The notes beneath the pieces are model-generated. The model saw only the letters and a program-made list of their open reading frames with translations, had not been told where the DNA came from and ran no database searches. The position numbers and the translations under genes were made by a program. From the NCBI RefSeq assembly GCF_029962605.1, contig NZ_CP124750.1, forward strand, positions 558,001 through 622,000: DNA of 64,000 bases, written 5' to 3'. The stretch comes from Serratia sarumanii. Its GTDB lineage: Bacteria > Pseudomonadota > Gammaproteobacteria > Enterobacterales > Enterobacteriaceae. Position 1 is the first letter of the stretch. Each line of letters begins with the position of its first letter. Shown piece after piece: positions 20,196 through 34,828 of this stretch.

Positions 20196-20954
20196 ATGGA
20201 TATTCAGGTTGAACGCTTGTCTGCGGTGATCGATGCGGTGGCCAGCCCGCGCTTTTATCCCAGCCTGTTGAACTGGCTGGAAGGGTTTTTCGCCTTCGAC
20301 AACGCCATCGTTTATGCCTTCGAACGCGGCCGGCCGCCGCGCTGCCTGATCAAAACCGAGCGGGAAAACAGCGATGCGGTCAACCAGATCTACCAACAGG
20401 GCGCCTATCTGCAGGATCCGTTTTACCGTGCGCTGAACGACGGCGGCGCAGGCGAGGTGCTCACGCTGCGCCAGCTGGCGCCCTGCGGGTTTTATCACAG
20501 CGACTATTACCGTAATTTTTATCGCAAGACCGGTTGGCACGACGAGGCTGGCGTGCTGCTGCAGCTGACGCCGGAGCGCGGGCTGGGAGTGTTCTTCGGC
20601 TCGGCGCGCCGCACGGTGGCGGTGCGCTACCCGCAGCGGGCGGATCTGCGCAGCGCGCTGACGCTGGTGAAAAGCGTGGCGCGGCTGCACGGCGAAGTGG
20701 TAGCGGCACCGGCCGAGGCCGACACGGGGAACGACGATGGCGCGCAGGCGCGCTATCTGCTGACGCCGCGCGAGCGCGAGATTGTCGATCTGATCCTCGC
20801 CGGCTGCGGTTCGCAGCAGATTGCCGACCGGCTGTTCATCAGCCTCGGCACGGTAAAAAATCACCGCAAGAACATCTACGGCAAGCTGAACATCGGCTCG
20901 CAGGCCGAACTGTTCAGCCTGCTGCTGACCGCCCCGCAGCGCCGCAGCGCGTGA
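20196..20954 (+). CDS. LuxR-type regulator next to alcohol and amine oxidation genes
   Basis: 252 residues. Residues 1-180 form an unrecognised sensor region; the C-terminal 65 residues are a LuxR/FixJ helix-turn-helix (YLLTPREREIVDLILAGCGSQQIADRLFISLGTVKNHRKNIYGKL). No receiver Asp pattern or typical acyl-homoserine-lactone pocket motif was seen. It lies between the divergent alcohol dehydrogenase and the downstream FAD oxidoreductase, whose promoter carries a palindrome. A second regulator of the same architecture lies at 26237-26884. Confidence 0.85.
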   Translation: MDIQVERLSAVIDAVASPRFYPSLLNWLEGFFAFDNAIVYAFERGRPPRCLIKTERENSDAVNQIYQQGAYLQDPFYRALNDGGAGEVLTLRQLAPCGFYHSDYYRNFYRKTGWHDEAGVLLQLTPERGLGVFFGSARRTVAVRYPQRADLRSALTLVKSVARLHGEVVAAPAEADTGNDDGAQARYLLTPREREIVDLILAGCGSQQIADRLFISLGTVKNHRKNIYGKLNIGSQAELFSLLLTAPQRRSA

Positions 20955-20965
20955 ATGTATCGATC

Positions 20966-21090
20966 TATCCCCTATAGCTTTCAAGCTACAGCTAGGCGGC
21001 CAGGACGAGCGTCCCCAGGAGCTTACTTAGGTAAGTGACTGGGGTGAACGTCAGCAGCCAACAACGCTGTAGTTTGAAAGATGAAGGGGA
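20966..21090. repeat. ERIC element, copy 3
   Basis: About 125 bases. It contains GTCCCCAGGAGCTTAC and AGGTAAGTGACTGGGGTGAA, near-exact matches to the central ERIC sequence used for typing primers, with TTTCAAGCTACAG / CTGTAGTTTGAAA arms. It lies between luxR and the FAD oxidoreductase gene and ends five bases before the palindrome upstream of that gene. Confidence 0.92.
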
Positions 21091-21094
21091 CGAA

Positions 21095-21139
21095 TGTCCC
21101 TAAGGGGACATAGCGGCACGGCTGCCGCTTCCCGATAAT
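21095..21139 (+). promoter_or_regulatory. Predicted activator site and -10 box upstream of the FAD oxidoreductase
   Basis: TGTCCCTAAGGGGACA (21095-21110) is a 16-base inverted repeat (six of eight pairs match, central mismatch), followed by TAG and, 23 bases later, GATAAT (21134-21139) as a -10 box. If GATAAT is the -10 hexamer, the palindrome centre falls near -43.5. The arrangement matches two better palindromes upstream of the sulfatase and APC permease genes. Confidence 0.5.
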
Positions 21140-21174
21140 CCGATGTCATGGCATAGGCAATCGGGAGTGCGGCA

Positions 21175-22476
21175 GTGAACAACGAAATCGAGTCCTTAAC
21201 CTACTACGCGGCGACCAAAAAATACGATCTGCGCTTCCCGACGCTGGAAGAGGATCTGGACGTCGACGTGGTGATCATCGGCGGCGGCTTCTCCGGCATC
21301 AACACCGCGCTGGAGCTGGCGGAGAAGGGCATCACCAACATCGCCATTCTCGAAGGCCGCTATCTGGGTTACGGCGGCACCGGGCGCAACGGCGGCCAGG
21401 TGATGGCCGGCATCGGCCACGATCTGGAGAAGATCAAGCGCCACGTTGGCCCGGCCGGGCTGGAAACCATCTTCAAAATCAGCAACCTCGGCGCCGGCAT
21501 CATCCGCGAACGCATCAAGAAATATGACATCGACGCCGACTTCTGCTTCGGCTACGGCTATCTCGGCAGCAATGCGCGCCAGGAGAAGACCCTGCGCGGC
21601 TGGCTGAAGGAGTTCAGGGCGGTAGCGCCGCAGGAGGAGATTGAGCTCTACACCGGGGCGGAGGTGAAGCAGGTGGTGGGCTCCGACGCCTACACCTGCG
21701 CGCTGAAACACATGGGCGGCGGCCACGTGCATTCGCTCAACCTGCTGCTGGGCGAGGCCAAGGCGCTGAGCGGCTACGGGGTGAAAATCTTCGAGAACAG
21801 CAGCGTGCTCAACGTGGAGTATGGGTCGCGCATCACGGTGCGCACCGCCATGGGCTCGGTGCGCGCCAACAAGATGCTGTGGGCCTGCAACGGCTTCCTC
21901 AACGGCATGGAGCCGCAGATTTATCGCAAGACCATCAATACCTACGCCTTCCAGCTGGCCACCGAGCCGCTGTCTGACGATCTGATCCGCCAGATCAGCC
22001 CGATCCGCGGCGCCTACAGCGACATCCGCCCGGTGATCGACTATTACCGGGTGACCAACGAAAACCGGCTGCTGTTCGGCAGCGCCACCCGCCTGATCGA
22101 ATACTTCCCGTCGGATCTCAAGGCCTGGAACCGCAACCTGATGCTGAAAGTGTTCCCGTACCTGAAAGACGTGAAGATCGATCTGGCCTGGGGCGGCCCG
22201 CTGTGCTGCAGCGCCAACCTGTTCCCGCAGATCGGCACGCTGCCGGATCGCGACAACGTGTTTTACGTGCAGGGCTACTCCGGCTTCGGCGTGACGCCGA
22301 GCCACATCGTGTGCAAGGTGCTGGCGGAAGGCATGAGCGAAGGATCCGATCGCTACGATCTGATGAGCTCGATCCCGCACGTCAACATCTTCGGCAAGGA
22401 CAAGCTGCGGCGGGTGATGACCACCGCCGGTAAGGTTTGGCACCAGACATCCGGCTACTGGAAAGGCCGCCGTTAA
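21175..22476 (+). CDS. FAD-dependent amine oxidase-like oxidoreductase (DAO/PuuB family)
   Basis: 433 residues. The N-terminal FAD-binding motif VVIIGGGFSGINTALELAEKG and the GYGGTGRNGGQV segment are those of the D-amino-acid-oxidase superfamily, close to gamma-glutamylputrescine oxidoreductase PuuB. The C-terminal VQGYSGFGVTPSHIVCKVLAEG closes the flavin site. It probably oxidises an amine to an aldehyde with release of ammonia. It starts with GTG behind CGGGAG. A cupin gene follows by 18 bases. No glutamate-putrescine ligase is present here, so a substrate other than gamma-glutamylputrescine is likely. Confidence 0.85.
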   Translation: MNNEIESLTYYAATKKYDLRFPTLEEDLDVDVVIIGGGFSGINTALELAEKGITNIAILEGRYLGYGGTGRNGGQVMAGIGHDLEKIKRHVGPAGLETIFKISNLGAGIIRERIKKYDIDADFCFGYGYLGSNARQEKTLRGWLKEFRAVAPQEEIELYTGAEVKQVVGSDAYTCALKHMGGGHVHSLNLLLGEAKALSGYGVKIFENSSVLNVEYGSRITVRTAMGSVRANKMLWACNGFLNGMEPQIYRKTINTYAFQLATEPLSDDLIRQISPIRGAYSDIRPVIDYYRVTNENRLLFGSATRLIEYFPSDLKAWNRNLMLKVFPYLKDVKIDLAWGGPLCCSANLFPQIGTLPDRDNVFYVQGYSGFGVTPSHIVCKVLAEGMSEGSDRYDLMSSIPHVNIFGKDKLRRVMTTAGKVWHQTSGYWKGRR

Positions 22477-22494
22477 CCCTCAGAGGAGAATGAC

Positions 22495-22860
22495 ATGAAA
22501 CCGTTACTGCTTAAACAACCGCTGCCGGAACTGCTGGAGATCGGCAGCGTCAGCAACCTGGGCGCCACGGTGATCGCCGGCACGCCAAACGTCGGCGTGG
22601 CCAGCATCTTCGGCGAACCGACCGACAACCTGAACTGCGGCGTGTTCAGCTGCACCCGCGGCAGCTTCGTGATGGAGTACCCGTTCGCCGAGCACGCCAC
22701 GGTGTGGGAAGGCAGCGCGACCCTGACCAACGAACGCACCGGCGAATCGGTGCAGTATCAGGCCGGCGACTCCTGGTTCGTCGAGAAGGGCACCCCGGTG
22801 CGCTGGGACATCACCTCGGACCGCTTCGTCAAACACTACCTCGCCATCGTCGAGGGATGA
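22495..22860 (+). CDS. Small cupin-domain protein (DUF861/EutQ-like)
   Basis: 121 residues forming a single cupin barrel: CTRGSFVMEYPFAEHATVWEGSATLTNERTGESVQYQAGDSWFVEKGTPVRW. Proteins of this kind often accompany amine-oxidising flavoenzymes. Their reaction is not firmly known. It follows the FAD oxidoreductase by 18 bases behind GAGGAG and is clearly in the same operon. It probably binds or processes the product or substrate of the oxidase. Confidence 0.85.
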   Translation: MKPLLLKQPLPELLEIGSVSNLGATVIAGTPNVGVASIFGEPTDNLNCGVFSCTRGSFVMEYPFAEHATVWEGSATLTNERTGESVQYQAGDSWFVEKGTPVRWDITSDRFVKHYLAIVEG

Positions 22861-22870
22861 CGCTTTTATG

Positions 22871-22892
22871 CCCCCTCAGCATGCTGAGGGGG
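22871..22892. terminator. Hairpin between convergent genes
   Basis: CCCCCTCAGC and GCTGAGGGGG form a perfect 10-base palindrome with minimal loop between the cupin and the lipase genes. Neither side has a strong T run, so termination is probable but not certain. Confidence 0.6.
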
Positions 22893-22898
22893 AACGCC

Positions 22899-23705
22899 TT
22901 AGCCCAGCGCCCGCGCAATAAAATCGGTCACCCGCTTGAGGATCCGATCCTTATTGGTTTCGTTAAAGCTCTCGTGCCGCCCGCCCGCATTGATCATCTG
23001 TTCGAAATTGTCGCCGCGCAGACGATCGAGCTCGGTTTGCGTTTCGCTCATCAGCACCAGCCGATCGTCGTCGCCGTGGATCCACAGCGTGGGCAGCGCG
23101 CCGAAGCCCGGCCCGGCGTTGATGGCGGCGAGGATCCGCTGCATGGCGCGCAGGGTGGGGCGCTTGAACGGCCCGTGCCACACCAGCGGATCTTCCTGAT
23201 ACGCCGCGCCAACCGCCGGATCGCGCGCCAGGGTAGCGGTATCCAGCGGCGCGTCGGGGATCGTCGGCAGTTCGGCCAGATCGGAGATCGCCGTTCTGTC
23301 GCCAAGCAGCGGGCCGGAAAGCACCAGCGCGCGCACCTCCTCGCCATAGCGCTGCACGTAGCGGGTAGCGATCATACCGCCCATCGAGTGGCCGATCACC
23401 ACCAGCGGCAAGGTGGGGTATTGCTGCCGGAAATGGCTGACCACGTGCTGCACGTCGTCGACCACGGCGTCATAATCCTCGATCAGCACGCGTTCGCCCT
23501 GCGACAGGCCGTGGCCGAGATGGTCGGGGCCAAACACCCGCGCGCCCTGCGCCTGTAGCGTGCGCGCCACGTATTGGTAACGGCCGAGATGCTCGCCGTA
23601 GCCGTGCACCAGCAGCGCCAGATAGCGCGGCTGGTCATTTCCCCAATCATGCACGGCGATGTCGCCGTGACGGCCTTTGATAAAGCTGACGGTTTGTTCG
23701 GGCAT
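22899..23705 (-). CDS. Alpha/beta hydrolase, monoacylglycerol-lipase type
   Basis: 268 residues. LLVHGYGEHLGRYQYVARTL carries the oxyanion-hole His-Gly segment; GHSMGG holds the nucleophile Ser; LWIHGDDDRLV and GGRHESFNE supply the acid and His. The order and lid region fit the serine aminopeptidase S33/monoacylglycerol lipase group, which cleaves monoacylglycerols or lysophospholipids. It is transcribed alone, opposite to the cupin gene. The natural substrate is open. Confidence 0.85.
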   Translation of the reverse strand: MPEQTVSFIKGRHGDIAVHDWGNDQPRYLALLVHGYGEHLGRYQYVARTLQAQGARVFGPDHLGHGLSQGERVLIEDYDAVVDDVQHVVSHFRQQYPTLPLVVIGHSMGGMIATRYVQRYGEEVRALVLSGPLLGDRTAISDLAELPTIPDAPLDTATLARDPAVGAAYQEDPLVWHGPFKRPTLRAMQRILAAINAGPGFGALPTLWIHGDDDRLVLMSETQTELDRLRGDNFEQMINAGGRHESFNETNKDRILKRVTDFIARALG

Positions 23706-23799
23706 GTTATTGTTCTCATGGTGGTAGGGTTGCCCTTCAGCGTAGCGGCTGGCGGCGAGGTTGTCAGGGGCGCCGGGTGCGGCGCCCGCAGAGAGGGGG

Positions 23800-24912
23800 T
23801 TACAGGCCGAACTGGCGCGCCAGCTCGTCGAGCGCTTCGCGCTGGAAGCGGTTGAAGGCGTCGCGCGGCTGCTGTTGCTGGATAAACGCCAGCAGCGGAT
23901 CCTGCACTTCAGTGCGCACGCCGCTCAGCTGTTCCATCACCGCCAGCCCGCAGAACGGCACGTAGGATTCGGCATAGCCGCCTTCGTGCACCATCACCAG
24001 CTTGCCGCCGCACAGCCGGTCGGCGGCGTCCTGCACCAGCGCGGTCATGGCGCGGAAGCTGTCGCTGTGCAGCTGCATGCGCGCCAGCGGATCGAGGGCG
24101 TTGGCATCGTAACCGCAGGCGACGATGATCAGCTCCGGCTCGAATTTTTCCAGCGCCGGGATAATGATGCGCCGCATGGCGTGCAGGTAGCCGTCGTCGC
24201 CGGCGCCGGCCAGCATCGGCACGTTAACGTTGCAGCCCGCCCCGTCGCCTTCGCCGCGATCCCGTTCGCCGGAGTAGCCCGCCGGGAAGCAGCCGTCCTG
24301 ATGCAGCGACAGCGTCAGCACGTCGCCGCGTTGCCAATAGATGTTCTGGGTGCCGTTGCCGTGGTGCACGTCCCAGTCGAGTACCGCCACCTTGCCGAGG
24401 CCATGGCGGGCCTTGGCGCGCTCGATGGCGATGGGAATATTGGCCAGGAAGCAGAAGCCCATCGATTGATCCGGCAGGCAGTGGTGGCCCGGCGGGCGCG
24501 ACAGCGCATAGGCGTTATCCAGCTCGCCCTGCAGCACCGCCTCCACCGCCGTGCAGGCCAGCCCGGCGGAGAGCTTGGCGATTTCATAGCTGCCCGGCCC
24601 CAGCGGCGCTTCCTCTCCCAGCAGGCCGCCGCCGCTGTCGCTCACCTGTTTGAAACGCTGCAGGTAGTGGGCGGGGTGAATGCGCAGCAGGTCTTCTTCC
24701 GTCGCCGGTTCGGCGCTCAGCAGGGTGAGCTGGCGCGACAGGCCGGATACGTCCATCAGGTTCTTCATGCGCCGTTTGGTTTCCGGCGACTCGGCGTGGC
24801 CGGCGCCCGAAGGCGGTTGCACCCAGCCGCCGACCGGCAGGGTAGTGGCGTGCAGGCCGGTGCTGTGCCAGAAACAGCGTTCATCAAACAAGAAACCGGT
24901 TGTTCTTTTCAC
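23800..24912 (-). CDS. Class II histone-deacetylase-like amidohydrolase
   Basis: 370 residues with the zinc amidohydrolase fold of class II HDACs and acetylpolyamine amidohydrolases. RPPGHHCLP holds the catalytic His pair, LDWDVHHGNGTQNIYW the Asp and His zinc ligands, ACGYDANALDPL the second Asp ligand, and VHEGGYAESY the catalytic Tyr. Bacterial members remove acetyl groups from polyamines or other amines. Its start overlaps the MFS stop by four bases, so uptake and deacetylation are probably coupled. The FAD amine oxidase nearby supports an acetylated-amine substrate; this is inference. Confidence 0.88.
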   Translation of the reverse strand: MKRTTGFLFDERCFWHSTGLHATTLPVGGWVQPPSGAGHAESPETKRRMKNLMDVSGLSRQLTLLSAEPATEEDLLRIHPAHYLQRFKQVSDSGGGLLGEEAPLGPGSYEIAKLSAGLACTAVEAVLQGELDNAYALSRPPGHHCLPDQSMGFCFLANIPIAIERAKARHGLGKVAVLDWDVHHGNGTQNIYWQRGDVLTLSLHQDGCFPAGYSGERDRGEGDGAGCNVNVPMLAGAGDDGYLHAMRRIIIPALEKFEPELIIVACGYDANALDPLARMQLHSDSFRAMTALVQDAADRLCGGKLVMVHEGGYAESYVPFCGLAVMEQLSGVRTEVQDPLLAFIQQQQPRDAFNRFQREALDELARQFGL

Positions 24913-26096
24913 CTTTCTCCTCCTGTTATACGGCGCGGTGCGCGCGGTGAAGCCAGCGAAATCAACAGCAGCGACAGCAGCGCGCAGCCCAGCGCGCCGA
25001 ACAGCAAAGCGTTGAAACCGCCGAAAGATTCGATCAGAGAGCCGGCCAGCGTCGGGCCGATGGCCATGCCGCCGCCGATCACCAGGTTGATGCCGTTCAT
25101 CAGCTTGCCGTCGTTATCCAACCCGGCGACCCGCGCCAGAATGAACGGCAGCACGAAGGTCCAGGTGAATTTGAACAGTAGAGCGGCCAGGGCGAAGCGC
25201 AGCAGCAGGGGCTGGCCCGTCAGCAGCGCCACGCTGGCCAGCAGCAGGGCGTACCCCAGCACGATCAGGCGTCCGCCGCCGAAGCGCGCGCCGATCAGCG
25301 CTGCTGCCCCCGCGCCGACGATGCCGAGTAAGGTGGCGACGGCCAGCACCTGGCCGCTGTGGGCCGGCGACAGCCCGGCGCCGGCGGCGATGCCGCCGAT
25401 AAAGGTCCAGACCGCGCTCAGGCTGATGTAAAAGGTCAGCACCGCCAGCACGGCACACAGCTTGCGCGCCAGCGAGGCGGCGGGGCCGCTGCGGGCGGCG
25501 CGGGCGGCGGTGAAACTGTTGGGGAATGCCGGGATGAGCGGCAGGCAGCACAGCATGATGGCCGCCAGAATCAGGTAGACCGCCATCAGGCCGAAGTGCG
25601 CGAACAGCGGCGGCAGCACCAGCAGCCCGACCGCGCCCAGCACCAGCTGGCCGAGCACCCAGAAGGCATAGACCCGGCTGGGATTGGCGGTGCCGGCGGC
25701 GCAGGTGATGCACAGGATCATCAGGGTGCCGCCCGCCAGCGAGGCGATAAAGCGCAGCGGCAGCAGCAGGGTAAAATCCTGCGCCAGCGCCGAAGCCAGG
25801 TTGCCGGCGATAAACACCAGCGCCGACAGCGTAGCGACCCGCCGCCAGTTGATGCGCCCGATCCACCACCACGCCGGCAGCGTGGCCAGGCTCATGGCGC
25901 CGAGTTCGGTGGAGAACAGGTGGCCGATCTGCGCCGGGCCGAGCTGCCACTGCGCGGCGAGCTGGGCGGCCACGGCGGGGGCGGTCATCAGAATGCCCGG
26001 CGCGATGGCGGCGAAGACGATAATGGCGGTCAGCAGCCGCGGCGGGCAGGGGAGCGCCGCCGAGGCGGCGGGCGCGGAAACCGAATCACTGGACAT
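24909..26096 (-). CDS. MFS transporter
   Basis: 395 residues with 12 predicted hydrophobic helices and MFS-like loops (WWWIGRINWRRVATLSALVFIAGNL). The start MSSDSVS follows AAGG; the longer open frame upstream is not coding. It overlaps the deacetylase gene by four bases and precedes it in transcription. Direction and substrate cannot be judged from sequence; import of acetylated amines for the deacetylase is the simplest idea. Confidence 0.85.
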   Translation of the reverse strand: MSSDSVSAPAASAALPCPPRLLTAIIVFAAIAPGILMTAPAVAAQLAAQWQLGPAQIGHLFSTELGAMSLATLPAWWWIGRINWRRVATLSALVFIAGNLASALAQDFTLLLPLRFIASLAGGTLMILCITCAAGTANPSRVYAFWVLGQLVLGAVGLLVLPPLFAHFGLMAVYLILAAIMLCCLPLIPAFPNSFTAARAARSGPAASLARKLCAVLAVLTFYISLSAVWTFIGGIAAGAGLSPAHSGQVLAVATLLGIVGAGAAALIGARFGGGRLIVLGYALLLASVALLTGQPLLLRFALAALLFKFTWTFVLPFILARVAGLDNDGKLMNGINLVIGGGMAIGPTLAGSLIESFGGFNALLFGALGCALLSLLLISLASPRAPRRITGGER

Positions 26097-26236
26097 AAAC
26101 CTTATTCCCCAAGCGTTAAGTGACGATGAAATATCCCGCCCGGCCCGATTGCGGGCAGGGGGAGGCCGCGCCATAAATGGCGAATACGTTTTGGCGTTAT
26201 TTTCCGGCCGTCGGCAGCGGCGGCCGTTATCGGGCG

Positions 26237-26884
26237 TTAACCGTGGGCGAGAAAGCCGCCGGCGACCAGTTCGGTGCGGTTCACCACGTCGGTTTTGGCG
26301 AAAATATTGCGCATATGGGTTTTCACCGTGGACAGCGAAATACCCAGCTTCAGGGCGATGCGCTTATTGCTGGCGCCTTCGCGCACCAGGTTGACGATCT
26401 CTTGCTCTTTGGCGGTCAGCATCTGCGCCTCGCCGTCGGGCAGCAGATCGCGCGTCGCCAGCTCGATCAGCGGCAGCACCGCGCGCAGGCGGCCGCGCTC
26501 CACTTCGGTAAACGGCGTATCGCGGATCAGCGATACCCCGGCGACGATGCGCTTGCGCTGGCGGATGAAGATCTCCGTCATGTCGCGCATGTCGTTCGGC
26601 AGCATAAAGTCGTGGTAATAGCGGCGGTTGCCGGCGATCGCCGCCGGGCTCATGCCGACCATGGTGATGTCCTGGCGATGGAAATTGGCCGGTTGCAGCG
26701 GGTCTATCTGTTGGAAGTGGTTCAGATACTGCTGATGCGTTTTATCGGGCATGCCGTACAGGATGTAATGATCCGGCCGCAGGTCGCGATCGACCAGATA
26801 AAACACCCCGGCGGACACCGGGATCAGGTGCGTAATGGTCGCCAAACAACTGTTGATAAAGGCATCGGATGCTGTGCTGTGCAT
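26237..26884 (-). CDS. LuxR-type regulator, candidate MoaR-like activator
   Basis: 215 residues: an N-terminal sensor region (about 1-150) and a C-terminal LuxR helix-turn-helix (QMLTAKEQEIVNLVREGASNKRIALKLGISLSTVKTHMRNIFAKT). It is divergent from the sulfatase operon across a 482-base gap that holds a 16-base palindrome. In Klebsiella, sulfatase and monoamine oxidation genes belong to a monoamine regulon controlled by MoaR, a protein of similar size with a C-terminal HTH; equivalence here is inferred from position only. It probably activates the sulfatase and permease operons. Confidence 0.82.
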   Translation of the reverse strand: MHSTASDAFINSCLATITHLIPVSAGVFYLVDRDLRPDHYILYGMPDKTHQQYLNHFQQIDPLQPANFHRQDITMVGMSPAAIAGNRRYYHDFMLPNDMRDMTEIFIRQRKRIVAGVSLIRDTPFTEVERGRLRAVLPLIELATRDLLPDGEAQMLTAKEQEIVNLVREGASNKRIALKLGISLSTVKTHMRNIFAKTDVVNRTELVAGGFLAHG

Positions 26885-27080
26885 GATTCGTGTTCCTCCC
26901 TTTATCGTTCAATCTGGAGAAGGTTGGCGGTCAATATATGAACGATACAAGCATAGTTGTAGCAATTTGGCAACACAATAAAAACATATTAACAACGTGA
27001 GGCCGATTGCAATAAAACACATAAATAACAAGATGACACTGCGTTAATCAGGGCTTTTCGGTTCGGATTTATCGCGATTT

Positions 27081-27098
27081 TCATTAATAGGTTAATGA
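27081..27098. promoter_or_regulatory. Palindrome resembling the hpaG1 upstream operator
   Basis: TCATTAATAGGTTAATGA has perfect 7-base arms around TAGG, and the symmetry extends two further bases on each side. Sixteen of 18 bases equal the palindrome at 35610-35627 in front of hpaG1. A MarR-type dimer such as HpaR would fit such a site. It lies 197 bases upstream of the LuxR gene. Confidence 0.45.
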
Positions 27099-27206
27099 AA
27101 TAATTCACCGCTTTTCCCGCTGAATTTACAGCGCTTTTCAATGTTTGCCCGGACGAAGCCCTCGCCGCCCTGCGCGTGCTACAGCCGATGCCGTCGCCGT
27201 CGTCCC

Positions 27207-27252
27207 TCGTTCTTAAGAACGATAGCCAGGCTTTTCCGCCGCTTCCTACACT
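27207..27252 (+). promoter_or_regulatory. Predicted activator site and -10 box of the sulfatase operon
   Basis: TCGTTCTTAAGAACGA (27207-27222) is a perfect 16-base palindrome, followed by TAG, and then after 24 bases by TACACT (27247-27252). Its centre is at about -44.5 if TACACT is the -10 box, the position of activators that touch RNA polymerase next to the -35 region. The same layout recurs at 30268. Confidence 0.6.
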
Positions 27253-27366
27253 GCGAATTGAAGATAGCGCCAGGCGGCGCCAAACGTATAAGACGAAAAA
27301 ATGATGACCTTTCTCGGGCTGAGGCGTCGGGTTGTTCAGTCCGCATGACCATACGGGGAACAAACG

Positions 27367-29079
27367 ATGCAGAAAAAAACGTTGGCGGTGGCGTTGAGCG
27401 GCGCCTTATCGGGTCTGGCACAGGGGGCGGACGCCGATCGCCCCAATGTGCTGATCATTCTGGTGGACGACATGGGCTACTCCGACATCAGCCCGTTCGG
27501 CGGCGAGATACCGACGCCCAACCTGCAGGCGTTGGCCGAACGGGGCGTGCGCATGAGCCAGTACTACACCTCGCCGATGTCGGCGCCGGCACGGTCGATG
27601 CTGATGACCGGCAACACCAATCAGCAGGCCGGCATGGGCGGCATGTGGTGGTATGAGAGCACCGCCGCGCAGCCGGGCTATGAAATGCGCCTGACCGACC
27701 GCGTGACCACGCTGCCGGAGCGTTTTCGCGACGCGGGTTACGCCACCATGATGGCGGGCAAATGGCACCTGGGCTATGTCGACGGCGCCAAACCGACCGA
27801 TCGCGGCTTCGAGCGCGCCTTCGCCTTTATGGGCGGCGGCACCAGCCATTTCGACGATGCGAAACCGCTGGGCACCGTGGAGGCGTTCCACACCTTCTAC
27901 ACTCTGAACGGCAAACGCGTGTCGTTGCCCAAAGATTTCTATTCCAGCAAGGCCTATGCCGATCAGCTGGAACAGTGGATCCGCGATACGCCGCAAAATA
28001 AGCCCGTCTTCGCCTATCTGGCCTTCACCGCGCCGCACGATCCATTGCAGGCGCCGGATGACTGGATCGCAAAATTCGACGGCAAATACGACGCCGGTTA
28101 CCAGCAGGTCTATCAGCAGCGCATTCAGCGCCTGAAAGCGCTGGGGCTGATTTCCGAGCGTACGCCGATGCCGACGCTGGCGCTGGATAAGGCCTGGAAC
28201 GCGCTGACGCCCGAGCAGCAAAAATATGAAGCCAAGACCATGCAGGTGTACGCGGCGATGATCGCTTACATGGACGATCAGGTCGGCGCGGTGCTGAACA
28301 CCCTGAAGCAGACCGGCCGCGACCAAAATACGGTGATCGTGTTCGCCACCGACAACGGCGCCAACCCCGCCAGCGGCTTCTACTACGGCTCGAAGCCGGA
28401 GTATTGGCGGCAGTTCGACAACAGCTACGCCAACCTCGGCCGCAAGGGCTCGTTCATCTCCTACGGGCCGCACTGGGCCAACGTCAGCAACGCGCCGTAC
28501 GCCAATTACCACAAAACCACCAGCGCGCAGGGCGGCATCAATACCGATTTCATCATCTCCGCGCCGCGGCTGAAGGGGCGCGGCGGCATCGACCGCACGC
28601 CGATGGCGGTGTATGACATCGCCCCGACGCTGTATGACTATGCCGGCATCGACGCCAACAAACCGCTGAAGGCCAAACCGACCCTGCCGATGGTCGGCGT
28701 CAGCTTCAAACGCTATTTCAGCGGCGAGGCCGACGGCGTGCCGCGCGCGACCTACGGCGTGGAGCTGCATAACCAGGCCGCCTATGTGGACGGCGTCTGG
28801 AAGCTGCGGCGGTTGGTGAAGGCCGGGCCGACGGCGCAGATGGCGCCGTGGGGGCTGTTCAACCTGCATGACGATCCGCTGGAAACGCGCGATCTGGCCG
28901 CCGCCAACCCGGAGCGAGTCAAACGGCTGAGCGAGGCGTATCGCCGCTTTGCGCAGCAGGGCATGGTCATTGAAGCCAAAGGCGCAGCGATCGACTACCT
29001 CGGCGTCGACGCCAGCACCGGCGACTACATCGGCCTGGATCCGTTGACTCACAAACCGTTGCCGCAGGCGGCGCCATGA
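27367..29079 (+). CDS. Ser-type arylsulfatase, periplasmic
   Basis: 570 residues with a signal peptide (cleavage near AQG, residue 20). The sulfatase signature [11 protein letters not shown] begins at Ser72, which a radical-SAM enzyme must convert to formylglycine; the Klebsiella arylsulfatase AtsA also uses Ser72. Metal-binding residues appear in [10 protein letters not shown] and FATDNGAN, and GKWHLG is conserved. It releases sulfate from aryl or similar esters. The next gene, overlapping by four bases, encodes the matching maturase. The promoter carries a palindrome shared with the permease operon. Confidence 0.92.
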
Positions 29080-30260
29080 ACCTGGTCCAGCTGCGCGCGC
29101 AGCAGATCCCGGTAGAGAGCGAACCGCGCGCGGCGGCGCCTTTTCATCTGTTGGTGAAGCCGATCGGCGCCGGCTGCAACCTGGGCTGCCGCTACTGCTA
29201 CTATCCGCAGCGCCAGCAGGAGCGGACGCGCAAGATGGACGACGACCTGCTGGCGGAATTTATCCGCGGCTACATCGCCGCCCAGCCGCGTTACAGCCGC
29301 GAGATCAACTTCGTCTGGCAGGGCGGTGAGCCGCTGCTGGCGGGGATCGGTTTTTACAAGCGGGCGCTGGCGTTGCAACGCCGCTACGCGCCGTCGGGCG
29401 TGCGGATCAGCAACAGCCTGCAGACTAACGGTACCCTGCTGAACGACGCCTGGTGCCGGCTGTTCCGGCAGCATCACTTTATCCTCGGCGTCAGCCTGGA
29501 CGGCGATCGCGAGGTGCAGGACGCCCACCGGCCGGACAAGCGCGGCGGTGCCAGCTATGACGCCGCGCTGCGCGGCATTGCGCTGTTGCAGCGCCATCAG
29601 ATCGATTTCAACCTGCTGATGGTGGTGCACGACGGCGTCGCGGATCGCGCCGAGGCGATCTACGATCATGCGGTGGCGATCGGGGCGCGCTATCTGCAGT
29701 TCCAGCCGCTGATGCTGGAAGGGGATGCGCCCACCGCCGGCTATGGGCTAAGCGCCGCCAACTGGGGGCGCTTCATGCTGGCGGTGTACCGCCGCTGGCG
29801 CAGCCGCGGGCACGTCGGCCAGGTGTTTGTGATGAACATCGAACAGGTCTACGCGCAGTATTTCACCCACGTCAGCCCCAGCTGCGTACACGCCGAACGC
29901 TGCGGCGGCAATCTGGTGATGGAGCCGGACGGGCGGCTTTACGCCTGCGATCATCTGATCAACGCGCAGCACCTGCTCGGCCATGCCGATCGCCACACGC
30001 CGCTCGCCACCCTGGCGGCAAGGGCGGCGGAGATGCCGTTCGGTAAAAACAAGAGCCTGCGCCGCGAGTGCCAACGCTGCAGCGTGAAAAGCGTCTGCCA
30101 GGGCGGCTGCCCGGCGCATGTGGGCGAAGATCGCTACAACCGGCTGTGCGCCGGCTATTACGCCTTCTTTTCCGCGCTGCTGGCGCCGCTGCGCGCCTAC
30201 CCGCGCAGCCCGCAGGGGGCGATGCAGTGGCGCGCCGCCGTGAGCGCGGCCGCAGGTTGA
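29076..30260 (+). CDS. Anaerobic sulfatase-maturating radical SAM enzyme (anSME)
   Basis: 394 residues. [10 protein letters not shown] (Cys34, Cys38, Cys41) binds the radical-SAM iron-sulfur cluster; [10 protein letters not shown] is the conserved GGEP motif; the C-terminal Cys-rich part ([34 protein letters not shown]) is the SPASM domain with two more clusters. It oxidises the sulfatase Ser to formylglycine in the cytoplasm before export. The start overlaps the sulfatase stop (ATGA), which implies coupled translation. Confidence 0.93.
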
Positions 30261-30267
30261 AACCGTC

Positions 30268-30313
30268 TCGTCCTTAAGGACGATAGTCAGCATTTTCCTT
30301 TCCTCTCTATAGT
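30268..30313 (+). promoter_or_regulatory. Predicted activator site and -10 box of the permease-MoaF operon
   Basis: TCGTCCTTAAGGACGA (30268-30283) is a perfect 16-base palindrome eight bases after the anSME stop, followed by TAG and, after 24 bases, TATAGT (30308-30313). Fourteen of 16 bases equal the sulfatase-promoter palindrome and the spacing is identical. Confidence 0.65.
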
Positions 30314-30389: not shown

Positions 30390-31883
30390 ATGAACCTGTC
30401 GTCGCGGTTGCACGCCCACCTGGCTCGAGGCAAGGTCGGCTTTCCCACCACCCTGGCCAGTTCGGTCGGGGTGATCATGGCCAGCCCGGTGATCCTGACG
30501 GTCACCAGCGGCTTCGGCATCGGCGGCGACACCTTCGCGCTGGCGATGCTGATCGCCTTCATCATGATGCAGGCGCAGCTCACCACCTTCTCCGAAGCGG
30601 CGGCGCTGCTGCCGACCTCCGGTTCGGTTTACGACTACATCTCCTGCGGCATGGGGCGCTTTTTCGCCATCACCGGCGCGCTGTCGGCCTACCTGATCGT
30701 GCACATCTTCGCTGGCACTGCCGAGACCATTCTCTCCGGCATCATGGCGCTGGTGAACTTCGAGCACCTCAACACCCTGATGGAAAGCCACAACGCCTCC
30801 TGGATGGTCGGCGTCGGGCTGGTCATCGTGTTCGGCCTGCTCAACGCGTTCGGCATCGAGGCCTTCGGCAAGGCGGAGATCGTGCTGACCTTCGCCATGT
30901 GGAGCACGCTGGTGATTTTCGGCATCGTCGGGCTGCTGTCGCCGCATGCGGTGCCGCTCGAGGGCTGGTTCGGCAGCACGCTGAGCCTGAACGATCCCTT
31001 CGCGGTGTTCAGCCTGATCGGCATGGCGATGTTCATGTTCGTCGGCTGTGAGCTGGTGACGCCGATGGCGCCGGAGATCAAACGTTGCGATCGGGTGATC
31101 CCGCGCGCGATGGCGCTGGGGTTGTGCGGCGTGGCGGTATGCATGGCGCTGTATGGCGCGGCGCTCAGCCACCAGGTGGAAAACGTGGTGATCGACGCCG
31201 CCAGCGGCACGCGTCTGCTGGAAACGCCGATGGCCATCCCGGCGTTCGCCGGCCAGGTAATGGGCCAGTTCGGCAAATACTGGCTCGGCGTCGGCCTGTT
31301 GTTGGCCGGCGCCGCGACCATCAACACGCTGATGGCGGCGGTGCCGCGCATTCTGTACGGCATGGCGCTGGACGGCGCGCTGCCGCGCATGTTCGCCTAT
31401 CTGCACCCGCGCTTTAAAACGCCGGTGGTCGGCATTCTGGTGGCGGTATTGATCCCCTGCGTACACGCCTTCGCCATTCAGGGCAACCTCGACAGGATCA
31501 TTCCGCTGGTGCTGGCGGCGGTGTGCGCCTGGGGCGTGGCCTACCTGCTGGTGACCTGCTCGGTGGTGATCCTGCGCGTACGCCGCCCCGATCTGCCGCG
31601 CGCCTATAAATCGCCGTGGTTCCCGCTGCCGCAGATCGTTTCCAGCGTCGGCATCGTGCTGGCCATCGTTTACATCACGCCGCCGGGAATGAACCCGAGC
31701 GACATCTACATTCCCTTTGGCTGGATGATCGGCCTGACCGCCGCCTATGCGCTGTTCTGGACGCTGTGCGTGCAGAAAGTGAATCCGTTCAAGCCGGTGC
31801 CGGTCGAGCAGGTGCTGGAGAACGCGTTCGCCAAAGGTGAAAACGAGGAGGCGCAGTTTGATCGGCTTACTTCCCTCACTTAA
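30390..31883 (+). CDS. APC-superfamily permease, probable amine importer
   Basis: 497 residues with about 12 membrane helices. The first helix region (TTLASSVGVIMASPVILTVTSGFGIGGDTFALAM) and MQAQLTTFSEAAALLPTSGSVYDYIS follow the APC pattern. It leads an operon with an unknown gene, two SDRs and MoaF, and shares a promoter palindrome with the sulfatase operon. Import of a biogenic amine such as tyramine is the best guess from context; sequence alone supports only amino acid or amine transport. Confidence 0.85.
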   Translation: MNLSSRLHAHLARGKVGFPTTLASSVGVIMASPVILTVTSGFGIGGDTFALAMLIAFIMMQAQLTTFSEAAALLPTSGSVYDYISCGMGRFFAITGALSAYLIVHIFAGTAETILSGIMALVNFEHLNTLMESHNASWMVGVGLVIVFGLLNAFGIEAFGKAEIVLTFAMWSTLVIFGIVGLLSPHAVPLEGWFGSTLSLNDPFAVFSLIGMAMFMFVGCELVTPMAPEIKRCDRVIPRAMALGLCGVAVCMALYGAALSHQVENVVIDAASGTRLLETPMAIPAFAGQVMGQFGKYWLGVGLLLAGAATINTLMAAVPRILYGMALDGALPRMFAYLHPRFKTPVVGILVAVLIPCVHAFAIQGNLDRIIPLVLAAVCAWGVAYLLVTCSVVILRVRRPDLPRAYKSPWFPLPQIVSSVGIVLAIVYITPPGMNPSDIYIPFGWMIGLTAAYALFWTLCVQKVNPFKPVPVEQVLENAFAKGENEEAQFDRLTSLT

Positions 31884-32448
31884 TCGCGCCTGGCGGCGAG
31901 CGCCGTCGGGCTATCGGCCGGGCGCCGCGCTGGATCGTCTGGCGCGCAACCTGGAGCCCTATGCGTGCGAACGCCTGGCACCGGGCCTGCTGCGGCTGAC
32001 GCTGCCGCAGGGGCTGCAGATCGAGATCGGCGAACAGGTCCAGGGGCTGTTTATGGCGCATATCGTCAGCCACCGCTTTCGGTTGCAGGGCGCGTGCGCG
32101 GCGCAGCCCCCGCTGACGCTGGACGTGGTGACCGGCGGCTGGCTGCGGCGGCGCGGGGTGCGTTATCTGCTGCGCCAGCGCCACGCGGCCGCGCAGCGGG
32201 TGCTGGACGGCCTGCAGCGCTACCCGCAGATCGGCGAGACGCTGGCGCAGCTGGATTTTCGCCGCGTGCGGCTGACGGTGAACGACGGGCGTTGGCAGGT
32301 GGAGATTGAGCATTTTGCCGCGTCGGAGGTAGTCAGCCGTTTGCCGGCCGGCCGCCGCTACCTGCGGCTGGATGCCGAACAGCGGCGGCTGCTGTTGAGC
32401 AGCCTGCTGATGATCGGCCAACTGATGGAGAAGCTGAATCATGAATAG
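31858..32448 (+). CDS. Conserved protein of unknown function (possibly DUF3156)
   Basis: 196 residues, rich in Arg and Leu, without signal peptide or clear helices. The best start is TTG at 31858: a perfect AGGAGG lies six bases upstream, inside the end of the permease gene. Overlaps of 26 bases with the permease and 8 with the next SDR show tight coupling. The pattern (GLQIEIGEQVQGLFMAHIVSHRF, LRRRGVRYLLRQR) suggests the DUF3156 family, but I am not certain. No function is known to me. Confidence 0.75.
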   Translation: MIGLLPSLNRAWRRAPSGYRPGAALDRLARNLEPYACERLAPGLLRLTLPQGLQIEIGEQVQGLFMAHIVSHRFRLQGACAAQPPLTLDVVTGGWLRRRGVRYLLRQRHAAAQRVLDGLQRYPQIGETLAQLDFRRVRLTVNDGRWQVEIEHFAASEVVSRLPAGRRYLRLDAEQRRLLLSSLLMIGQLMEKLNHE

Positions 32449-33223
32449 AGTGGTTGTGATTACCGGCGGCGGCACCGGCGTCGGCGCCGCCTGCGCCCGT
32501 CTGCTGGCGGCGCAGGGCGATCGGGTGTTCATCATCGGCCGCCGCCCGGAACCGCTGGCGGCGCTGGCGCAAGAGATCGGCGCGCAGGCGCTGGTGGGCG
32601 ATGCCGCCAGTGGCGAGAGCTGGAACCATGCGCTGCTGCCGGCTATTCTGCGCGAAGCCGGGCGCATCGACTGCCTGATCGGCAGCGCCGGCGGCATGGG
32701 CTTCAAGCGCATCACCGAGATGACCGACGCGCAGTGGCAAGGGGCGATGGACAGCAACCTCAACAGCGCCTTCGCCAGCGCGCGCGCCTGCCTGCCGGAG
32801 CTGATTAAAAGCGGCGGCAACCTGCTGTTTGTCGCGTCGATCGCCTCGCTGGCCGCCGGGCCGGAGGTCTGCGGCTACGTCACCGCCAAGCACGCGCTGA
32901 TCGGGCTGATGCGCTCCATCGCCCGCGACTATGGCCCGCTGGGCGTGCGCGCCAACGCGGTGTGCCCCGGCTGGGTGACCACGCCGATGGCGGACGAAGA
33001 GATGCAACTGCTGATGGACGCCCATCAGATTTCGCTGGAGCAGGCTTACCAGATGGTCTGCCGCGACGTGCCGCTGCGCCGCCCGGCCAGCGCCGAGGAG
33101 ATCGCCCGCGTCTGCCGTTTCCTGTGTTCCAGCGAAGCTTCAATCATTACCGGCGCGGCGCTGGTGGCCGACGGCGGCTCCACCATCGTTGACGTGCCGA
33201 CCCTGGCTTTCACTTCCCTGTAA
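32441..33223 (+). CDS. SDR-family oxidoreductase
   Basis: 260 residues. The NAD(P)-binding TGGGTGVGAACARLL, the NNAG-like position GSAGG, Ser in LLFVASIAS, Tyr/Lys in YVTAKHA and the PGWVTTPM segment are complete. The NNAG motif is altered to GSAGG. It lies between the unknown gene (8-base overlap) and moaF (12-base gap). It probably reduces or oxidises an intermediate of amine catabolism; the substrate is unknown. Confidence 0.87.
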   Translation: MNRVVVITGGGTGVGAACARLLAAQGDRVFIIGRRPEPLAALAQEIGAQALVGDAASGESWNHALLPAILREAGRIDCLIGSAGGMGFKRITEMTDAQWQGAMDSNLNSAFASARACLPELIKSGGNLLFVASIASLAAGPEVCGYVTAKHALIGLMRSIARDYGPLGVRANAVCPGWVTTPMADEEMQLLMDAHQISLEQAYQMVCRDVPLRRPASAEEIARVCRFLCSSEASIITGAALVADGGSTIVDVPTLAFTSL

Positions 33224-33234
33224 GGAGCATTTCC

Positions 33235-34032
33235 ATGAGTTCAGAAGCGGTATTCATTCAGGTTGGCGCGTTGGCGGAAGGCTTTGCGCCGCACAGCAAT
33301 ACGCTGGAACGGCAGCACGGGCTGGCGGGCAGCACGCTGACGCTGCGCTTTAGCGACGGCGCGACGCAGCGCTGCCGGTTTACCGACGAGCAGACGCTGG
33401 AGTGGGGCGAACGGTGCGGCGTCGCCTATCGCGCCACCAGCATTCGCCCCGGCGTGCTGTTTATCGATTTTCTCGATCCCGCCCGCGCCAACGCCAGCAT
33501 TACGCTGGTATGCGACCGCAATCAGGGCAACTTCACTGCGGTATACGGCCAACTGCCGGACGAAGCGCAGGCGCGGCTCGATGCCTTCAGCCGGGTGGAA
33601 CAGGGGCTGCCGCTGACCGCGGTCGAGGCCGAGTTCCGCTTCGGCACGCTGGATGACGCCGACGTGGCGCCGCCGGGCTTTACCGATGAGCTGATCGGCA
33701 TGCGCAATATGTACACCTACAGCCCGACCGAGCGGTACGAGCACATCTACCTGAACGATAACTTCTACGCCTGGCAGTGTCTGGACGGGGTGGAGAAAGG
33801 GCTGGCGGACGTCGATCGCTGCCACTACGTGAAGGTGGCGGAGCAGCTTTATCTGTTCGTCTGGCGCGAGAAGATCATCCCGACGCTGGGCGTGGTGATG
33901 ATCGATCTGCAGGGCATGCGCACCGACGGCAAGATCCTCGGTTATCAGGGCAGCGATTTCAGCGCGCTGAGCAACTTTGCGGTCGGCGCCCATGCGCAGG
34001 TGCTGAACACCACGCGCCACCCGCGAGGATAG
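33235..34032 (+). CDS. moaF: MoaF-family protein of the monoamine regulon
   Basis: 265 residues. The two-part layout matches MoaF: an N-terminal lipocalin-like half (LAGSTLTLRFSDGATQRCRF, YRATSIRPGVLFIDFLD) and a C-terminal half (RYEHIYLNDNFYAWQCLDGVEKGLADVDRCHYVKVAEQLYLFVWREKIIPTLG). In Klebsiella, moaF is induced by tyramine as part of the monoamine regulon; despite the name it is unrelated to molybdenum cofactor synthesis. The biochemical role is unknown. GGAGC precedes the ATG. Its presence is the strongest single sign that this operon deals with monoamines. Confidence 0.85.
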   Translation: MSSEAVFIQVGALAEGFAPHSNTLERQHGLAGSTLTLRFSDGATQRCRFTDEQTLEWGERCGVAYRATSIRPGVLFIDFLDPARANASITLVCDRNQGNFTAVYGQLPDEAQARLDAFSRVEQGLPLTAVEAEFRFGTLDDADVAPPGFTDELIGMRNMYTYSPTERYEHIYLNDNFYAWQCLDGVEKGLADVDRCHYVKVAEQLYLFVWREKIIPTLGVVMIDLQGMRTDGKILGYQGSDFSALSNFAVGAHAQVLNTTRHPRG

Positions 34033-34036
34033 GGCG

Positions 34037-34828
34037 ATGAGCGCAACCTATGCGGCCGACGCCTTCGCGGGGCAGGCGGTGCTGGTGACCGGCGGCGCGC
34101 AGGGCATTGGGCTGGCGATCGTCAGCGCCTTTGCCCGGTTGGGCGCCGAGGTGACGATCGCGGACGTGCAGCTGCCGCAGGCGCAGGCGGCGGCGCAGGC
34201 GCTGCGGGACGAAGGGCTGAGCGTGCAGGCGCTGGCCTGCGATCTGGCCGAACCGGGGCAGATCGCCGAGCTGGTGACGGCGGTAGGTGAGCGGCATCAA
34301 CGGCTGGACGTGGTGATCCACAACGCCGCTTACTTTCCGCTGACGCCGTTCGCCGCCATCGACGCGGCCCTGCTGCAACGCACGCTGAGCGTCAATCTGA
34401 TGGCGCCGTTCTTTCTGGCGCAGGCGGCGCTGCCGTGGATGCGCCGCCGGGGCGGCGGCTGCCTTCTGGTGACCTCGTCGGTGACCGGCCCGCGGGTAGC
34501 CTACCCGGGGCTGGCGCACTACGCCGCCTCCAAGGCCGGGGTGAACGGGTTTATTCGCGCGGCGGCGCTGGAGCTGGCGGCGGAGAAAATTCGCGTCAAC
34601 GGCGTGGAACCGGGGATGATCCGCACGCCGGCGATGGCCAACCTGGGCGGCGCACAGGTGAATCAGGCGATCGCCGCCTCGGTGCCGCTAGGGCGGCTGG
34701 GGGAACCGGAAGACATCGCCGCGGCGATGGTGTTTCTCGCTTCGCCGGCGGCGGCCTACATCACCGGCCAGACGCTGGTGGTGGACGGCGGCGCGCTGTT
34801 GCCGGAAACGAATTCTCTGCTTACTTGA
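34037..34828 (+). CDS. SDR-family oxidoreductase, last gene of the permease-MoaF operon
   Basis: 263 residues with TGGAQGIGLAIVSAFARLGAEV, HNAA at the NNAG position, Ser in LLVTSSVTG, Tyr/Lys in HYAASKAGVNG, and the DGGALLP C-terminus. It starts four bases after the moaF stop. It is related to 3-oxoacyl-ACP or sugar dehydrogenases in sequence, but its genomic place suggests a role with the other amine-linked genes. The substrate is not predictable. Confidence 0.87.
   Translation: MSATYAADAFAGQAVLVTGGAQGIGLAIVSAFARLGAEVTIADVQLPQAQAAAQALRDEGLSVQALACDLAEPGQIAELVTAVGERHQRLDVVIHNAAYFPLTPFAAIDAALLQRTLSVNLMAPFFLAQAALPWMRRRGGGCLLVTSSVTGPRVAYPGLAHYAASKAGVNGFIRAAALELAAEKIRVNGVEPGMIRTPAMANLGGAQVNQAIAASVPLGRLGEPEDIAAAMVFLASPAAAYITGQTLVVDGGALLPETNSLLT

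Follow-up and report, generated by a model that had tools for sequence, protein, structure and literature searches.

In the 64,000-nucleotide stretch of the Serratia sarumanii genome analyzed here (contig NZ_CP124750.1, positions 558,001 to 622,000; hereafter the window), three operons are each preceded by a 16-bp inverted repeat, which we call sites or operators A, B, and C, and two genes for LuxR-type regulators, LuxR1 and a protein resembling MoaR (MoaR-like), lie among them (Table 1). Very probably, B and C, which precede a sulfatase-maturase operon and an operon for a permease, short-chain dehydrogenase/reductase (SDR) enzymes, and MoaF, are operators of the MoaR-like protein, and A, which precedes the genes for a flavin adenine dinucleotide (FAD)-dependent amine oxidase and a cupin, is the operator of LuxR1, the whole forming a variant, in Serratia, of the monoamine regulon known from Klebsiella. 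Operator binding, activation, and transcription starts at the three sites are what we infer from the sequences. We thus propose an operator spelled out in letters, together with the geometry of its half-sites and its promoter distance, that suits Serratia, Klebsiella, Providencia, and others; regulon members would then be predictable from sequence, and the amine oxidase promoter offers what looks like a clean case of a single promoter passing between two LuxR-type regulators.

A first-pass annotation of this DNA had described B and C as perfect 16-base palindromes lying 24 bases before their −10-like hexamers, with A 23 bases before its own, and both the letters and the coordinates proved exact; the TAG that it noted after each site was confirmed by letter check. 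With the −10 hexamers placed at −12 to −7, the sites are centered at −43.5 (A), −44.5 (B), and −44.5 (C), the same values that it had given. The TAG starts a would-be −35 element with an 18-base spacer, TAGTCA at C and TAGCCA at B, and a consensus promoter scan listed the −35 of C alone, at 9 of 12 letters. Both regulators show the GerE/LuxR helix-turn-helix (HTH) domain in Pfam, and Pfam and NCBIfam agree with the operon contents proposed earlier (FAD oxidase and cupin; sulfatase and maturase; permease, SDR, and MoaF).

Palindromy alone is weak evidence here because the window holds 8 perfect palindromes of 16 bp, whereas simulation gave 2.7 on average and 8 at most. The pattern shared by B and C, at up to 3 mismatches, matches twice in the window against 0.33 expected (2 matches are reached in 3 of 100 shuffles), and in the 5.19-Mb genome the pattern TCGTYCTTAAGRACGA matches B and C only at up to 2 mismatches, compared with 13 places for the reversed control pattern. 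At 3 mismatches there are 22 more places in the genome, which are not counted as sites (126 for the reversed control). Since the pattern is conserved across genomes, a chance origin is untenable.

Across genomes, the B/C operator follows the MoaR-like protein. The joint occurrence that the first-pass annotation had suggested looking for in Serratia is found throughout the 30 genomes of the genus, in which a palindrome with no more than 1 mismatch and a MoaR ortholog (E below 1e-100) are both present in 25 and both absent in 5; three of the 25 also carry one stray 1-mismatch match. Of 246 genomes sampled from the family (154 genera), 23 have MoaR (E up to 1e-30) and 34 have the palindrome with at most 1 mismatch; stray matches occur in 15 of the 223 genomes that lack MoaR. 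In 17 of the 23 MoaR genomes moaR has a site with at most 1 mismatch no more than about 4 kb away, and the remaining six (G031, G073, G102, G112, G181, and G228) have sites with 0–3 mismatches before target genes. The LuxR-type activator regulon originally suggested for B and C is thus supported by co-occurrence and by these 17 neighboring sites. Conservation at orthologous promoters, the lack of which had been named as grounds for rejecting the idea, is indeed found, including in Klebsiella and Providencia relatives. With 3 mismatches allowed, the operator pattern stands before the maturase gene in 8 distinct promoters, before the sulfatase gene in 8, and before the first SDR gene (SDR1) in 10, one of the last being a doubtful match (L083). 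Some of these sites are not linked to the regulator gene. In G102 an exact palindrome lies 139 bases before a maturase match, on a contig other than that of moaR, and in four Providencia loci the SDR1-moaF genes are preceded by a site with 3 mismatches (L082, L084, and L086) or 4 mismatches (L085), with the moaR-like gene, and a 1-mismatch site beside it, outside the SDR-MoaF locus; in the L084 genome the moaR-like gene is broken. The unlinked target sites in G102 and Providencia argue for action of the regulator in trans. In-frame stops interrupt the moaR-like gene of Providencia stuartii NCTC11800 (L154 and L158), and a 1-mismatch operator remains alongside it. Operator B was also considered as a divergent operator of moaR itself and set aside, as the start of moaR is about 320 bases away and inspection by eye showed no palindrome in the conserved block that precedes moaR.

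The distance to the −10 hexamer is likewise retained. When each gene was assigned its closest site with no more than 3 mismatches, 79 gene-site pairs resulted, which reduce to 59 distinct promoters. In 54 of these 59 the best −10 (range 16–30) falls 22–24 bases past the operator; shuffling the downstream bases gave 11 such promoters on average and at most 20 (500 trials). The spacing differs among promoter classes, with the −10 at 24 bases in 22 of 25 permease promoters and in 8 of 8 Serratia sulfatase promoters, at 23 bases in 7 of 10 SDR1 promoters, and at 22 bases in 6 of 8 Klebsiella-type maturase promoters; FAD-oxidase promoters with MoaR-type sites have a weak hexamer at 23 bases in 5 of 8. 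The first-pass annotation had suggested testing for matches 23–25 bases before a −10; the window observed is 22–24 bases, and five copies of operator B, described below, have no −10 at 24 bases. The share of the majority base, averaged over 32 distinct permease promoters, comes to 0.97 in the −10, 0.94 in the operator, and 0.45 in the 40 bases upstream, figures that were drawn from promoters with a site of at most 2 mismatches, so that the operator value is partly so by construction. The promoter rows are related to one another, and the conservation and spacing figures are to be read as descriptive.

These results also bear on the possibility that the palindromes are operators of a third regulator encoded elsewhere, or sites of repression rather than activation, which we regard as unlikely. 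NarL does repress at frdA from a 7-2-7 site near the start, according to the cited excerpt (PMC4549865); against repression stand the center near −44 next to a weak −35, which is an activator position, and the published description of MoaR as a positive regulator (PMC6813237). A third regulator, for its part, fits poorly with a palindrome that follows the moaR-like gene through genus and family and lies so often beside it.

Site A had been read at first as a related, more diverged copy of the other two that might belong to the other LuxR protein. The second half of that guess is supported; the first is replaced, as A appears to be a second operator with at least 6 mismatches to the B/C pattern. 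LuxR1 matches (presence called at E≤1e−30) occur in 12 of the 246 family genomes, partial in G045 and G190, and site A, at up to 1 mismatch, occurs in 10 of these 12 and in 0 of the 234 others, the telling part being the 0 of 234, since the pattern was itself derived from LuxR1-genome promoters. All 10 matches lie within about 0.3 kb of LuxR1. One of the two LuxR1 genomes without a match, G118, has a site with two mismatches (L131), and the other, G045, has a partial LuxR1 and no FAD oxidase in its 19-kb locus; in L136 (G190), LuxR1 and the FAD oxidase are each matched in two pieces. LuxR1 flags on L120, L123, L130, L132, and L139 are cross-matches at E<1e−8, most likely through the shared HTH, and were not used. 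When the FAD-oxidase promoters of LuxR1 genomes are aligned, they share AATRTCCCTAARGGGACAT with at most 2 differences and an invariant GATAAT, which lies exactly 23 bases past site A in 23 of 23 LuxR1-type rows, some of these rows being close relatives. In the 11 of 23 MoaR genomes that lack LuxR1, site A is absent and B/C-type sites are kept. Eight of these 11 carry, ahead of the FAD oxidase, a MoaR-type operator with no more than 3 mismatches, and in seven of the eight two operator copies abut, 15 bases apart, the second copy in L123 being at four mismatches; G102 has a weak, four-mismatch MoaR-type site in this position. A tree of 26 FAD oxidases requires one change between the two operator types, and the operator swap at this gene is, on that tree, one evolutionary switch and not many.

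That one LuxR-type protein serves A, B, and C, with A a diverged copy of the B/C site, is a still less probable explanation. All three sites share the form of a 16-bp inverted repeat and stand nearly equally far from the −10, and the two LuxR-type proteins show a distant relationship, with 24% identity over 234 aligned columns, as such an explanation would have it, but site A is conserved in its own right: the best B/C-type match in the 23 LuxR1-type rows has at least 6 mismatches, as has the best A-type match in FAD-oxidase rows without LuxR1, and a single regulator would not account for the MoaR genomes that keep B/C-type sites without LuxR1 or site A. Readings of the palindromes as hairpins in RNA, of terminator or attenuator type, or as a dispersed repeat in the DNA can practically be dismissed, for while perfect inverted repeats can fold and site A adjoins a dispersed repeat and is overlapped in its left half by a minus-strand terminator-like match, the palindromes lie upstream of their own −10 and therefore outside that transcript, the terminator scan gave no match at B or C, only two genome copies lie within 2 mismatches, and the hairpin is rejected because operator positions 5 and 12 do not covary, all four combinations, including the unpaired C/A, occurring among 18 distinct operators. 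The terminator-like match at A (21087–21100) is probably a by-product of repeat and operator letters.

In the assignment that we favor, the N-terminal domain of each regulator would sense a small molecule, probably an amine or a breakdown product, the amine being suggested by the gene content and by the published Klebsiella work. The MoaR-like dimer would bind the 16-bp inverted repeat with half-sites TCGTYCT-2-AGRACGA, and the LuxR1 dimer one with half-sites TRTCCCT-2-ARGGGACA, and the bound dimer would recruit RNA polymerase from a center near −44, abutting the weak −35, as NarL does at −44.5. The simplest reading of the MoaR-like protein, on its model and by analogy, is that of a sensor domain that binds a ligand, fused to an HTH of the NarL type, which would contact RNA polymerase near −44. 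The likeness to NarL/FixJ proteins lies in the sites and the HTH: A, B, and C are 16-bp inverted 7-mers with a 2-bp gap, both regulators have GerE HTH domains, and the common form of site A, TGTCCCTAAAGGGACA, has the same center as the NarL 7-2-7 site, given as TACCCCTAAAGGGGTA in the cited excerpt (PMC4549865). At the ogt1052 promoter one NarL site, centered at −44.5, is enough for activation, as the relevant passage states (PMC9314961). In contrast to NarL/FixJ proteins, neither LuxR-type protein has a Pfam receiver-domain match, the MoaR-like sensor resembles SdiA/QscR and GAF domains, and the B/C half-sites read TCGTYCT.

The MoaR-like model (mean predicted local distance difference test score 85, predicted template modeling score 0.67) aligns along its length with SdiA, QscR, and RhlR, with a different domain arrangement, and over about 150 aligned columns with the GAF domains of DosS. 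The full-length Foldseek alignment to SdiA has E=1.2e−9 and a template modeling score of 0.52, whereas the identity of 19% and the root-mean-square deviation of 8.9 indicate that the domains of the two proteins are arranged differently. In contrast to the quorum-sensing LuxR proteins, the MoaR-like gene stands in a context of amine and sulfate-ester use, and neither LuxR-type protein matches the autoinducer-binding Pfam domain at E up to 0.001. TpdR of Rhodococcus jostii, which was grouped in a tree with the Klebsiella aerogenes monoamine-regulon regulator according to the portion of that paper cited (PMC6099782), is likewise a LuxR-type regulator of a catabolic promoter, though from another phylum and for another substrate.

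The closest known system is the Klebsiella monoamine regulon, which as published comprises MoaR and the atsBA, moaEF, tyn, and mao operons. MoaR has been in print as its switch since the 1990s (a 1995 title is cited in PMC9386226), and the cited title and excerpt make it a positive regulator of atsBA and moaEF (PMC6813237; title cited in PMC9386226). In K. pneumoniae ATCC 13883 (L076) the gene order is MoaR, maturase, sulfatase, SDR1, MoaF, with operators before the maturase and SDR1 genes at 2 and 3 mismatches, respectively, and the regulator adjoining this run is 58–60% identical to the MoaR-like protein, its equation with the published MoaR resting on gene order. Both systems have a LuxR-type gene beside sulfatase-maturase and SDR-MoaF genes. 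They differ in that in Serratia the sulfatase gene comes before that of the maturase, the permease stands with SDR-MoaF behind operator C, and a second LuxR-type regulator accompanies the FAD oxidase. Copper amine oxidase/tyramine oxidase (PF01179) has no match in this genome; of 7 genomes searched, 4 have one. As the tyn feature is absent, we call the Serratia system a variant of the MoaR regulon. In the literature searched, four operator strings and the terms "MoaR box" and "MoaR binding" were not found, nor was a paper joining MoaF, LuxR, and Serratia.

Several observations weigh against the assignment of the operators, beyond the derivation of the site A pattern mentioned above. The tynA loci of the four genomes that have them show no operator at up to 3 mismatches, each locus including about 440–480 bases before the frame, despite the place of tyn in the published regulon. 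The LuxR1 genomes are a subset of the MoaR genomes, and because the operator label at the FAD-oxidase gene changes once, the Fisher values for the association rest on few independent events. G085 and G211, of one genus, have neither operator type at the FAD-oxidase promoter, and the 8 distinct FAD-oxidase promoters of MoaR type have a weak −10, with a mean score of 0.2 at 23 bases. The beta-proteobacterial MoaR relatives of Pseudogulbenkiania, Leeia, and Paraburkholderia (38–42% identity) have no convincing site, the lone 3-mismatch match in Paraburkholderia (L083), in the gap between the moaR-like gene and SDR1, failing the arm-symmetry filter, and for the MoaR paralog of L138 (G211), encoded next to a MarR-type gene, no B/C operator is recognizable at up to 3 mismatches in 19 kb. 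Finally, operator B is kept, at up to 1 mismatch, in 8 loci without sulfatase genes (L057, L058, L061, L062, L063, L066, L067, and L146), and in five of these (L061, L062, L063, L066, and L146) the hexamer 24 bases past B is no −10.

Of the same 8 loci, L062 has TATTCT at 20 bases past operator B, L067 retains a weak TTCACT, and TGTATT and TACACT follow the operator in L057 and L058, respectively. In L057 (6857–7060) and L058 (6875–7060), which are close relatives, the junctions left by the missing sulfatase-maturase genes differ, and this suggests separate losses of the operon in the two. L077 has two sites with other DNA between them, and L071 has one site only. It is possible that operator B has a second role, for example, acting with operator C on the permease promoter, and such a role would explain why B is retained after loss of the sulfatase operon. 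Only tentatively, and with somewhat less than even confidence, we put forward a joint reading, in which two ligand-sensing 7-2-7 LuxR-type activators exchanged one amine-oxidase promoter in one switch, the replaced operator standing at nearly equal distance from the amine-oxidase gene, and B would keep its second role without the old −10.

Table 1. Sites, promoter elements, and genes of the two-regulator region (positions within the window)
Feature	Position	Strand	Sequence	Remarks
Operator A, 16-mer	21095–21110		TGTCCCTAAGGGGACA	letters checked
Operator A, extended	21094–21111	+	ATGTCCCTAAGGGGACAT	pattern ATRTCCCTAARGGGACAT, 7-2-7
−10 hexamer, FAD-oxidase operon	21134–21139	+	GATAAT	23 bases past 16-mer of A
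Operator B	27207–27222	+	TCGTTCTTAAGAACGA	perfect 16-bp palindrome, letters checked
−10 hexamer, sulfatase operon	27247–27252	+	TACACT	24 bases past operator B
Operator C	30268–30283	+	TCGTCCTTAAGGACGA	perfect 16-bp palindrome, letters checked
Weak −35-like element adjoining operator C	30284–30289	+	TAGTCA	18-base spacer
−10 hexamer, permease operon	30308–30313	+	TATAGT	24 bases past operator C
LuxR1, LuxR-type regulator	20196–20954	+		Pfam GerE E=1.2e−16; proposed activator at A
FAD-dependent amine oxidase-like, DAO family	21175–22476	+		Pfam DAO E=3.7e−50; first gene behind A
Cupin	22495–22860	+		Pfam Cupin_3 E=2.2e−17; second gene behind operator A
Histone-deacetylase-like hydrolase	23800–24912	−		Pfam Hist_deacetyl E=2.4e−81; synteny, moaR-side gene run
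MFS transporter	24909–26174	−		Pfam MFS_1 E=2.3e−14; adjoins moaR-like gene
MoaR-like LuxR-type regulator	26237–26884	−		Pfam GerE E=2.2e−14; proposed activator at B and C
Sulfatase, atsA-like	27367–29079	+		Pfam Sulfatase E=1.8e−54
Anaerobic sulfatase maturase, atsB-like	29076–30260	+		NCBIfam TIGR03942 393.7 bits, cut-off 349.45
Amino-acid/amine permease-like	30390–31883	+		Pfam AA_permease_2 E=5.4e−34
Conserved 203-residue protein, permease operon	31837–32448	+		no NCBIfam match; adjoins permease in relatives
SDR dehydrogenase, moaE-like by position	32441–33223	+
moaF-like	33235–34032	+		Pfam MoaF_C E=8.2e−49, MoaF E=1.4e−24
Second SDR dehydrogenase of operon	34037–34828	+		NCBIfam NF009468 392 bits, cut-off 318

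The repeat that adjoins site A (20955–21096) is inserted between LuxR1 and the operator and has 13 matches in the genome, including itself, that are 75–100% identical; it appears to resemble the enterobacterial repetitive intergenic consensus (ERIC) element. In L057, about 105 bases stand in place of the repeat, and a TGTTAA element found shortly upstream of operator A in relatives is displaced or lost in the window. In the leader of the sulfatase gene there is a 15-codon reading frame (MMTFLGLRRRVVQSA, 27301–27348), possibly a leader peptide, which has a similar form in L059, L060, L064, L065, L068, and L160 and not in L069, L070, and L087.

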